A DNA stretch of 64,000 nt from an uncultured Pseudanabaenaceae cyanobacterium (GTDB lineage Bacteria > Cyanobacteriota > Cyanobacteriia > Pseudanabaenales > Pseudanabaenaceae). Shown here in pieces: positions 16,413 to 20,138 of this stretch. The notes below the pieces were generated by a model. The model was not told where the DNA came from, did no database searches, and saw only the letters and a program-made list of their open reading frames with translations. How positions within the stretch are numbered: the first letter of the stretch is position 1; every line of letters starts with the position of its first letter. The position numbers were made by a program, and so were the translations under genes. The DNA lies in contig CALGKB010000007.1 in assembly GCA_937927915.1 (NCBI GenBank), positions 62,001 through 126,000 of the forward strand, given 5' to 3'.

Positions 16413-17120
16413 TCATCCTGCGACAGCGGGCATAGGTGCGGCACTGATTTTGCCGTCTTCCATGGCAATGATGCGATCGGCTATGTCCAAAATGCGATTG
16501 TCGTGGGTAACTAACAGGATGGCTGTCCCCCGTTCTTTTGCTAGCTTGTGCATAATGGTCACCACATCCCGCCCCGCTTTTTTATCTAAAGCTGCTGTTG
16601 GTTCGTCCGCTAAAACGATCGGTGGTTCCGCAACTAAAGCTCTGGCAATAGCCACCCGCTGACGCTGTCCCCCTGATAGTTGTTCTACATAGTAATCAAC
16701 CCGCTGTGCCAAGCCCACCTGCCCCAACATTGCCACTGCCTTGGCATCCATATCTCCACAGAATTCCCGATCGTGCAACTCCAATGCCATGCGGACATTT
16801 TGTTTGGCAGAGAGAAAAGTAAGGAGATTGTGACCCTGAAAAATATAGCCAATCTTGCGTCTAGTTTCTATTAGTTTCCGTGGTGAGGCTCCCCGCATTT
16901 CTTCCCCTAGAATTTGCAGACTGCCCTCCTGTACCGATCGCAGTGCTCCTACTAAAGTTAAAAGGGTAGTTTTGCCGGAGCCAGAGGGACCAGTCAGAAT
17001 GACAATTTCGCCAGGATAAATGGTGAGGGAAATATCGTAGAGCACCTGTTTTCTTAGTGCCCCCGTGCCAAAGTAGTGATTCAAGTTCCTTACAGCAATT
17101 ACAGGTGGCGGTGTGAGCAT
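16413..17120 (-). CDS. devA: DevA-type ABC exporter ATPase
   Basis: This 235-residue ATPase powers a MacB/DevBCA-type exporter. It has Walker A GPSGSGKTTLLTLVGALR, a Q-loop region IGYIFQGHNLL, signature LSGGQRQRVAIARALV, Walker B IVLADEPTAALD, and a switch His in LLVTHDNRIL. In heterocyst-forming cyanobacteria DevBCA with TolC exports glycolipids; homologues in unicellular strains export other lipids, pigments or peptides, so the cargo is unclear. It lies 11 nt after devC and ends the operon devB-orf70-devC-devA. Confidence 0.93.
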   Translation of the reverse strand: MLTPPPVIAVRNLNHYFGTGALRKQVLYDISLTIYPGEIVILTGPSGSGKTTLLTLVGALRSVQEGSLQILGEEMRGASPRKLIETRRKIGYIFQGHNLLTFLSAKQNVRMALELHDREFCGDMDAKAVAMLGQVGLAQRVDYYVEQLSGGQRQRVAIARALVAEPPIVLADEPTAALDKKAGRDVVTIMHKLAKERGTAILLVTHDNRILDIADRIIAMEDGKISAAPMPAVAG

Positions 17121-17131
17121 GGTTTTTTCTC

Positions 17132-18337
17132 CTAAAAAATATCAGCGGGGTCAGCAGATAGCAGTTTTTGTGCCGAAATGGCGGCGGAAACCAGACACAT
17201 TAACACCGTTAAACTAAATACCAAGCCTGCTTTGTATAGGCTCATCCCCATCGGTAAAAATGTGGCAATCCTGGTGAGTTGGTAAAACCCAATGGAGATA
17301 AATAAACTGGGCAGATAACCGAAAACTGCTAGTAGTAATGCCTCCTGGAAAAGAATAGCCAGCAAACTACCATCGGAGTAGCCCATTGCCTTGAGGGTGG
17401 CATATTCTGACAGGTGGTCGACAACGTCAGAGTAGAGAATTTGATAGACAATTGCTACCCCTACTACAAAACCAATCCCTACCCCCAAACCAAAAATAAA
17501 CCCGATCGGTGTTGATTCTGACCAGTAATTCACTTCTACTTCTGCCATTTCTGCCTTGGTTAAAACGAGGACATCCTTGGGTAAAAATGCCCGTAATTGT
17601 GCCTGTACTTTTTTGACATCTGCTCCTGGGGCTAGGCGAATTAGTCCCAAATCTATGCGATCGGGGTTGCGGTTAGGGAATATGTTGTGAAAAGTGGTGT
17701 CACTGACAATGACATTGCCGTCAAATGCAAAGGAAGCCCCCAAAGAAAATAAACCCTGCACATTAATTAAACGCCCGCCTAATTCTGTTTGGACAACTTT
17801 TTGTTGCTGCAACATCTGGGGAATAGGACCAAATTCTGACCGACTGGAGCGATCGAATAACAAAGCATTGAGGGGGCGAATTTTAGGAAGATTGCTTCTA
17901 ATTTCGGGGTCAACAAAGGGGGCATGGTCAGGATTGACTCCAAACACTAAAATTGTGCGGGGTACTCTGGTGATGGGATGGCGCCATTTCGTCACATCTA
18001 AGTAGACGGGAGTGACGGATTTTACCCCTGGTATGGCTTGGGCTTGATAGAGCCTAGCACGCAAAATACTTTCCGGACGAGCGATGGTTTTGTAGTCGGG
18101 ACTAGCTAGGACAATATCGGTAGCGAGGGCGCGATAGGGAGTGCGACAACTGTTGTAGAGGGCATCCTGAAATCCCAGCTGCATAAACATCAAGAAATCA
18201 GCAAAGGTAATACCAGCTATCGCTACTAGTAAGCGATTTTTTTCCCGCATCAATTGCAGCCAGGCTACAGGGGTACGCTTTAACCATTTGCTGATAAAAT
18301 TTGGGCGGCATTCCTGGTCTTGCTTTAGTAAAACCAT
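17132..18337 (-). CDS. devC: DevC-type ABC exporter permease
   Basis: The 401-residue permease starts at the ATG at 18337 (MVLLKQDQECRPNFISKWLKR); the frame extends upstream but only into sequence already used by the neighbouring genes. It has a first span after REKNRLLVAIAGITFADFLMFMQLG, a large extracytoplasmic domain (residues ~60-270), then three C-terminal spans (FIFGLGVGIGFVVGVAIVYQILY, LLAVFGYLPSLFISIGF, LVFSLTVLMCLVSAAIS). This is the FtsX/MacB fold expected of DevC. Its first 13 nt overlap the end of a 70-residue ORF. It works with DevB and DevA across the inner membrane. Confidence 0.93.
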   Translation of the reverse strand: MVLLKQDQECRPNFISKWLKRTPVAWLQLMREKNRLLVAIAGITFADFLMFMQLGFQDALYNSCRTPYRALATDIVLASPDYKTIARPESILRARLYQAQAIPGVKSVTPVYLDVTKWRHPITRVPRTILVFGVNPDHAPFVDPEIRSNLPKIRPLNALLFDRSSRSEFGPIPQMLQQQKVVQTELGGRLINVQGLFSLGASFAFDGNVIVSDTTFHNIFPNRNPDRIDLGLIRLAPGADVKKVQAQLRAFLPKDVLVLTKAEMAEVEVNYWSESTPIGFIFGLGVGIGFVVGVAIVYQILYSDVVDHLSEYATLKAMGYSDGSLLAILFQEALLLAVFGYLPSLFISIGFYQLTRIATFLPMGMSLYKAGLVFSLTVLMCLVSAAISAQKLLSADPADIF

Positions 18338-18537
18338 AAAGGTAAATCTCCTAGAAAATCTGTCACTGCTTCCACGATCGGTAAAATATCCAGGCGGGCA
18401 AGGGTAGCGGCAAATTTCTCCCGCGTCAGGGGGCGATGGGGATTGATAATTAACTCCCCTGTCACTCCCAGGAACTGCCACCACTCCTTTAGCTGCTGTC
18501 TGCCCCGCTGGTACAGGCTGACTAACCACTCCCTCAT
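18325..18537 (-). CDS. Unknown 70-residue protein between devB and devC
   Basis: This small ORF starts with ATG overlapping the devB stop (ATGA at 18534-18537) and ends 13 nt inside devC, an arrangement typical of co-translated operon members. The predicted protein (MREWLVSLYQRGRQQLKEWW to the end, 70 residues) has no signal peptide or clear membrane span. Its first third is basic and Trp-rich, the second half (REKFAATLARLDILPIVEAV) looks helical, and it ends in an aromatic segment DLPLWFY. I know of no named family. It might be a small regulator or adaptor of the exporter, or of its missing repressor. It could also be a chance open frame; the tight overlaps on both sides argue against that. 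Confidence 0.6.
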   Translation of the reverse strand: MREWLVSLYQRGRQQLKEWWQFLGVTGELIINPHRPLTREKFAATLARLDILPIVEAVTDFLGDLPLWFY

Positions 18538-19673
18538 GGCTCGATCGCCACTACCACCTGCAAATTGTTCAAATGCCGCACCCTTTTACTGCCGTCTGGG
18601 TCAAGGGCAACTTTTACTTCAATCACGCGGCGGTCTAGTTTTTCCCCTGGTTGCCCACTGAGGATAGTCTGCCGCTCGACCTGTAAGCCAATGGCTGTCA
18701 CTTTCCCCTGCACTGCCCCCGGGAAGGCTTCCCCCGTCACGGTTGCGGTCTGTCCCACTGCCACCCTGCCAATGTCTGACTGATAAACCTCTGCCACTGC
18801 CACCATCCGATCGGTGCTCCCCACCTCCACAATGCCTTGACTACTCACCACTTCCCCTGGATAGCTGTGAATTTTCAGCACTTCCCCCGCCACCGGTGAC
18901 CGCACTATGCTTAACCCCAGGTCAGTTGTAATCTGTCGCAGGTTTGCCTCCGCCTCCCGCAATTCTGCCTCCGCTACCGCCACATCCACAGGACGTACTT
19001 CCACTAAGCGCCGTTTGGTTGCCTCTGCCTCCGCTATCTGTGCCTGGAGGGTCGCAATCACCCGTTGCCGCCCTGACTTTGCCTGCTCTAGGTTTGCCCT
19101 GGCGGTCTGGAGGGTCAACAGTTTGCTGTCTGCTAGGGACTGGGAGACCACATCATCCCGTACCAGTGCCTGATAGCGCTCGTATTCCCTTTGGGCATTC
19201 TGCACCTCTGCCGTCAAACGGGCTAGGGTCGCCTCCTGTTCTGCCAATTCCCCTGCCAATTGCGCCCGTAATCGCTGAATTTCCGCTGTTTGTGCCTCAA
19301 TTTCTGCCTGTTTTGCCCCTGCCTGCACCTGCCGTAGTTTAGCTCTGGCTACCTCCACCTGCTGTTTTGCCCGCTCCTGCAAAGCTTGCAAGCGCCAATG
19401 ACTCTCCAACAGGGCAATCACATCCCCCTTTTCTACCCTGTCCCCCTCCTTTACCCGCAACACCGCTACCCGATCGTTGGCTAAAAAACTGGGCACCGAC
19501 ACATTCACTACCCCCGAGGCTGGCTCTAACCGCCCCAATGCCACTACTTTGATGGGTTCCTCTGGCACACTGGCGACCACTGTCTGTTGCTTAGGTGCAA
19601 GATGAAAGAAGGCAAAACCGATCGTGGTCAGCATAGCAAAACTGGTCGTGCCCGTCCACCACCATTTTTTCAT
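18534..19673 (-). CDS. devB: DevB-type membrane-fusion protein (HlyD family)
   Basis: The 379-residue adaptor links the DevCA pump to an outer-membrane TolC-like channel. The ATG at 19673 is chosen because GGAGG stands 6 nt before it and the frame upstream overlaps the TetR remnant. After MKKWWWTGTTSFAMLTTIGF, a membrane anchor, come a lipoyl half (VKEGDRVEKGDVIALLESHW), a long α-hairpin (residues ~85-210, rich in Ala, Glu and Gln), a second lipoyl half (SIVRSPVAGEVLKIHSYPGE) and the β-barrel. It is the first functional gene of the exporter operon and overlaps the TetR remnant by 4 nt. Confidence 0.93.
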   Translation of the reverse strand: MKKWWWTGTTSFAMLTTIGFAFFHLAPKQQTVVASVPEEPIKVVALGRLEPASGVVNVSVPSFLANDRVAVLRVKEGDRVEKGDVIALLESHWRLQALQERAKQQVEVARAKLRQVQAGAKQAEIEAQTAEIQRLRAQLAGELAEQEATLARLTAEVQNAQREYERYQALVRDDVVSQSLADSKLLTLQTARANLEQAKSGRQRVIATLQAQIAEAEATKRRLVEVRPVDVAVAEAELREAEANLRQITTDLGLSIVRSPVAGEVLKIHSYPGEVVSSQGIVEVGSTDRMVAVAEVYQSDIGRVAVGQTATVTGEAFPGAVQGKVTAIGLQVERQTILSGQPGEKLDRRVIEVKVALDPDGSKRVRHLNNLQVVVAIEP

Positions 19674-20138
19674 GTCTGTACCTCCCCCTGTCTCTGCTTG
19701 TGTTGCCAATAAACCGCTAACATCTCCCCCAAAATAGCGCCGATCCTGGCATCGTAGATGCTGTTGATCACTAAACCATCAATTAAACAGGACAACAAAT
19801 TAGCTAGGTCGGCATCGGCAAGGGGGAAGATTTCCATCGCTGCCTGGGCATAGAGTTTCTTCACCTCCTCAGAGTCAGAAGTAAACAAATAATTGAGAAA
19901 GATCAATGCCTCCTGCTGGCATTCCTCTTCATAGCGACTGATATAGGCAAATAGACCCGCAATCCGTTGCCAAAAGCGCAGGCATAGCCCTTTGAATGTG
20001 CTCCCCTGTTACAAAATCCCACAACTGTTCAAATAAAGCCTCCTTGCTAGGAAAGTAGTGGTACAACCTGCCCGTAGAAATACCTAAATTCTCCGCAATC
20101 TGCCACCGATAAGCCCCGTGCTCCACTACCTTAGGCAT
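19670..20138 (-). pseudogene. TetR-family regulator with a broken reading frame and damaged HTH
   Basis: Read leftward from the ATG at 20138, the sequence starts MPKVVEHGAYRWQIAENLGI, continues STGRLYHYFPSKEALFEQLW, then loses frame. The remaining TetR C-terminal half continues in another frame (RFWQRIAGLFAYISRYEEEC onward) to the stop at 19670. The 469-nt span is not a multiple of three, confirming one frameshift, which I place between about 19,965 and 20,010. In addition, about 20 residues of helix 1 and the turn are missing between GAYR and QIAENL, since TetR proteins of this type normally have a full helix there. Both lesions should abolish DNA binding. It overlaps devB by 4 nt (ATGA), so it was presumably the local repressor of the dev-type operon. 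Confidence 0.75.

Follow-up and report, generated by a model that had tools for sequence, protein, structure and literature searches.

DevBCA exporters consist of an adaptor, a permease and an ATPase that work together with an outer-membrane channel. In another tripartite exporter system, AcrZ forms a single transmembrane helix and is encoded away from acrAB. It is a small accessory protein of the transporter in AcrAB-TolC (PMC7267776). In the window (the whole stretch of 64,000 nucleotides that was analyzed), the DevB, DevC and DevA genes are arranged in the B-C-A order that is usual for DevBCA/HgdBC-type tripartite ABC exporters, but the operon differs from these systems by a fourth gene between B and C. 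The three genes were assigned by curated models, and no result of the analysis links the exporter to heterocyst glycolipids. The likeness of the fourth gene product to AcrZ is one of proposed function only, i.e. of a small protein on the inner-membrane transporter of a tripartite system, and not of descent; unlike AcrZ, the window protein is encoded inside the operon and lacks a clear span. A third comparison is offered by WP_245602845.1 of the Gloeothece verrucosa PCC 7822 plasmid Cy782202, a member of the same wider family to which the window protein very probably belongs, annotated only as a hypothetical protein. Its gene has a TetR gene on one side and a Coq4-family gene on the other; it is linked to Coq4, whereas the window protein is linked to DevBCA.

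The small gene and its operon

The small gene (18325..18537, minus strand, stop codon within the coordinates) is an ORF of 70 codons plus stop with the translation MREWLVSLYQRGRQQLKEWWQFLGVTGELIINPHRPLTREKFAATLARLDILPIVEAVTDFLGDLPLWFY. Its ATG (18537-18535) overlaps the TGA of devB (18536-18534) in the tetranucleotide ATGA (18534..18537, minus strand), and its other end overlaps the start of devC by 13 nt (18325..18337, minus strand), the devC ATG being at 18337. An earlier note on this DNA had described a 70-residue ORF placed between devB and devC and overlapping both in this manner. The sequence confirmed its coordinates and both overlaps and placed it on the minus strand, which the note had not given; the overlaps are identical in G003, the genome of a sister species in that genus. 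The flanking devB (18534..19673; membrane-fusion or adaptor subunit, 379 aa), devC (17132..18337; permease subunit, 401 aa) and devA (16413..17120; ATPase subunit, 235 aa) are adjacent on the minus strand. All three scored above the NCBIfam curated cut-offs, with 319 bits against 129 for TIGR02971 (heterocyst_DevB), 462 against 290 for TIGR01185 (devC) and 355 against 296 for TIGR02982 (heterocyst_DevA). Most of the DevBCA operons that were inspected lack a gene of this kind, in agreement with the statement in the note that such operons normally do without one.

The description of the protein in the note was less accurate. The window copy is not basic, as its net charge is 0 (+1 in the G003 copy and about +3 to +7 in most family members), and its Trp residues are found at positions 4, 19, 20 and 68 rather than concentrated at the start. 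The remark that there is no clear span held true: the best 19-residue hydropathy was 1.28 in the window copy, which has no strong transmembrane span, and 0.8-1.9 across the family. The predicted structure was helical, with three helices, at low confidence (pLDDT 70 and 62). A PDB fold search with the predicted model recognized no ligand-binding or other fold; the best match (E 0.8, needle-protein helices) was not regarded as meaningful for a three-helix model of low confidence.

Spurious ORFs of 50-100 aa abound in this region, so that the length of the ORF alone is not beyond chance; its conservation is. The assignment as a gene draws on the sequence, the sister copy, a profile comparison and a selection test. 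In G003, the ORF is found at the equal place in the same operon with equal length, the ATGA and the 13-nt overlap, and with 64% protein identity. Comparison of the two copies by NG86 gave a dN/dS of 0.24/0.69 = 0.35, the corresponding values of the flanking genes being 0.13/1.83 for devB and 0.08/1.34 for devC. The differences at the three codon positions were 19/12/24. When the 55 substitutions were placed at random, 33.2 amino-acid changes were expected, as compared with 25 observed (P = 0.0003), and the frame remained open in 6.7% of the placements (P = 0.067); the third-position excess taken alone is weak (P = 0.06). Frame conservation in relatives and unequal change across codon positions were the checks that the note had proposed, and both came out in favor of the ORF. 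Neither DevC nor the small ORF was found in G002, the third genome of the genus (90% complete). The results indicate that the ORF is a genuine gene under purifying selection. It is probably translationally coupled to devB and devC, as the view of a co-translated operon gene in the note implied.

Before devB lies a decayed gene for a TetR-family regulator (19670..20138, minus strand), found by tblastn of the intact 206-aa G003 TetR against the window. Compared with the intact gene, it has lost 21 residues of the DNA-binding domain, carries a frameshift and has two further, smaller deletions. The frameshift by itself could be a sequencing error, but the deletions are harder to explain in this way, and it is possible that the window genome no longer has a repressor for this operon. 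With a full-length query, no GNAT acetyltransferase of the type that neighbors other family members was found in the window genome (G000), G002 or G003, under conditions where the positive controls G001 and G009 gave clear matches. As judged by neighborhood, G003 has DevBCA and an intact TetR gene, and the window has DevBCA and the decayed one. Thus, since TetR is decayed and this GNAT type absent, the exporter is the only recognized partner left for the small gene in the window genome.

A wider family of small proteins

The window copy had no match in Pfam, NCBIfam, PADLOC or PDB, in line with the note, which knew of no family for it; other members gave scattered weak matches. A literature search of titles and the beginnings of abstracts yielded no description of the small gene in those parts of the records. 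A single-sequence search of the genome contigs with the window copy found nothing because this copy is too divergent. A two-row profile (A1) and a five-row profile (A2) were both searched over 390 sampled cyanobacterial genomes. A1 gave weak matches over most of the length in G117 (E 0.008) and G238 (E 0.03), while the match in G314 was shorter. The matched places were ORFs of equal size within devB...devC operons, and the C-terminus of these relatives reads DDLPYWFY, as compared with GDLPLWFY in the window. With A2, 58 of the 390 genomes had a match at E < 0.001, and the number rose to 69 when E values up to 0.05 were allowed (seed genomes included). Named carriers are Lyngbya sp. HA4199-MV5, Tildeniella nuda, Leptolyngbya sp. 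FACHB-321 and Leptolyngbyaceae RU_5_1.

The aligned members are about 65-75 aa long and share the consensus W.RF.R....PW..L....LL...R.....RxM.....IDF...Y.LLNDLLW. Alignment A3 showed that R13, W19 and L22 are nearly invariant, the window copy included, and that the window copy ends in WFY; it has the features by which we delimited the family (about 60-80 aa, an R....W..L core and an aromatic C-terminus). The N-terminal motif W.RF.R....PW is common to the family, while the tails vary with context: DLPYWFY or RYPPY with DevC, NDLIW before GNAT, and NDLLW or QPEFWV beside Coq4. The median dN/dS in five family subgroups was 0.17-0.27.

Several further candidates were considered. An 87-aa ORF before GNAT in locus L021 scored better than all 2000 shuffles against a broad profile (A5), and 2 of 2000 shuffles reached its score against a profile of the dev-operon subgroup (A4); it is possibly a family member. 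An ORF between GNAT and devC in L033 (EYYAAYEPDVIN...FKPLE) resembles one in L021 by eye; its score against the family did not exceed that of shuffled sequences, and it was not counted as a member. Matches on Burkholderia-type plasmids (E 0.8) were judged to be due to chance. The small protein was also considered as a broken C-terminus of GNAT, both having a P-x-W-like tail; this was dismissed, as intact GNAT and small genes adjoin. Family copies beside Coq4 in L177 (G013) and L178 (G012) contain one in-frame TAG and are either recently broken genes or read errors. Two Synechocystis plasmid records contain family members at places where no gene is listed.

Genomic neighborhoods and the DevC tree

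The neighborhoods of 62 loci were compared, with neighbor families identified on representatives by Pfam. TetR was found near the small gene in 55 loci, in 45 of them at a distance of up to three genes on the upstream or four on the downstream side and in the remaining 10 just beyond that range or as a partial gene; cluster 0 TetR lay upstream of the small gene 46 times and downstream once. The other partners were GNAT acetyltransferases (24 loci), Coq4-family proteins (23), DevB/DevC (14-15) and MFS proteins (12), with P450, DUF2834, DUF5367 and a sigma-70 factor occurring in 4 loci each. Only 2 of the 62 loci lacked any neighbor of the TetR, Coq4, GNAT, MFS, DevB/DevC or P450 type. The small gene is thus not special to DevBCA; TetR is its most constant neighbor, and the partner changes. 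As most family members lie beside Coq4 or GNAT without DevBCA, the family may originally have had a partner other than an exporter. In the cyanobacterial locus L175, a Coq4-family gene adjoins TetR and the small gene; cyanobacteria produce plastoquinone and are not known to make ubiquinone.

The small gene separates devB from devC in 16 operons; it often follows devB immediately, and in some cases it ends 4-15 nt ahead of devC. These operons often also carry GNAT and DUF2834/DUF5367 genes, and in the related operons TetR is the gene that precedes devB. In the dev-type operons L143, L150, L152 and L154, where the small protein ends in RYPPY, a sigma-70-family gene is found just before the small gene, often together with a DUF5367 gene. 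A tree of 37 DevC proteins placed all 16 that are accompanied by the small gene in one clade (support 99/97). This clade comprises 22 rows, 6 of them without the small gene, and the presence or absence of the gene required 3 changes on the tree versus 12 in shuffles. The rows without the small gene were taken only from the window's own order, so that the tree is not a census of DevBCA operons.

Possible roles of the small protein

The window and G003 copies could be a genus-specific ORF unrelated to the family, their likeness to the dev-operon subgroup being due to chance and to the constraint of the devC start. It speaks for this possibility that the broad profile A5, built without the two copies, found neither of them, and that part of the signal comes from the tail. 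The last codons overlap devC in both copies, and the conservation of the tail is therefore partly forced there; when the last 8 residues were kept fixed, the real score was still reached by 38 of 5000 shuffles for the window copy. For the G003 copy, however, only 1 of 5000 such shuffles reached it. Comparison of the pair with the dev subgroup by hhalign gave a probability of 94% and a score of 40.3, whereas none of 1000 column shuffles scored above 22.1, and profile A4 ranked the G003 copy as the top match in its genome (E 7.9e-4), although the window copy was not listed. The profile comparison, the same operon slot and the position in the same DevC clade together make the link likely. We therefore consider a chance resemblance improbable; the probable connection of the pair to the wider family depends on the dev-operon subgroup. 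The window protein thus likely belongs to an unannotated cyanobacterial family found in TetR-controlled detoxification/export clusters, and it is probably an accessory subunit of such modules.

The note had proposed a small subunit, a substrate adaptor or a regulator of the exporter, and each of these roles may still apply. As to what the small protein does, we tentatively favor, at somewhat less than even chances, an accessory protein of the DevBCA exporter that is membrane-associated and binds DevC or DevB and DevC, thereby modulating the exporter. The ancestral operon would have been TetR-devB-small-devC-devA, with the small protein translated in coupling to devB and devC. The mostly helical product would associate with the membrane through its helices, and these, together with the conserved C-terminal aromatic tail DLPLWFY, may contact the permease DevC, or the site where DevB and DevC meet, at the inner membrane. 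In this way the small protein would change how active the exporter is or which substrates it accepts, much as AcrZ acts on AcrB. The persistence of the small gene and the exporter despite the decay of TetR and the absence of this GNAT type favors this accessory role at the exporter. The same decay argues against a co-regulator or anti-repressor of the neighboring TetR repressor, since the small gene is still open and constrained in the window. The strong TetR neighborhood would suit such a regulator, as would genus g87, where the frames of the TetR, small and GNAT genes touch or overlap by their coordinates; but TetR differs by context (of two representatives scanned, only the Coq4-context one had a TetR_C match), and we find this role quite unlikely. 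Still less probable is that the ORF matters only for coupling translation, and thereby for the ratio of devB to devC, with its peptide as a by-product. The ATGA and 13-nt overlaps conserved in the sister species are what this would predict, but it explains neither the amino-acid constraint in the window/G003 pair and across the family nor the homologues outside dev operons.

A broader alternative to the accessory protein of the exporter is that the small protein is a general element of TetR stress cassettes and not a transporter subunit, i.e. a protein of the membrane interface that binds the inducer or substrate, a lipophilic compound, and passes it on to the encoded partner. The frequency of TetR among the loci, combined with a variable payload (Coq4, GNAT, MFS, DevB/DevC, P450), points in this direction, as does the sharing of the N-terminal motif by proteins with different tails. 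The fold search, in which no ligand-binding fold was recognized, and the small number of P450 and MFS associations count against it, and we regard it as rather unlikely, if the most serious of the alternatives. Slightly more speculative is an extension to the whole family of about 70-aa helical proteins, which might be exchangeable membrane adaptors of TetR-induced detoxification modules, with one core and varied tails, passing a lipophilic compound on to the partner that the module happens to encode, be it DevBCA, a P450/MFS pump, an acetyltransferase or a protein of the Coq4 family.

Neither Pfam nor NCBIfam includes the small-protein family. A fourth conserved gene in one DevBCA subfamily would provide a handle on the control or substrate choice of that subfamily. 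That the same family also accompanies Coq4-family proteins, acetyltransferases, P450s and MFS pumps suggests that cyanobacteria have an inducible stress response not yet described.
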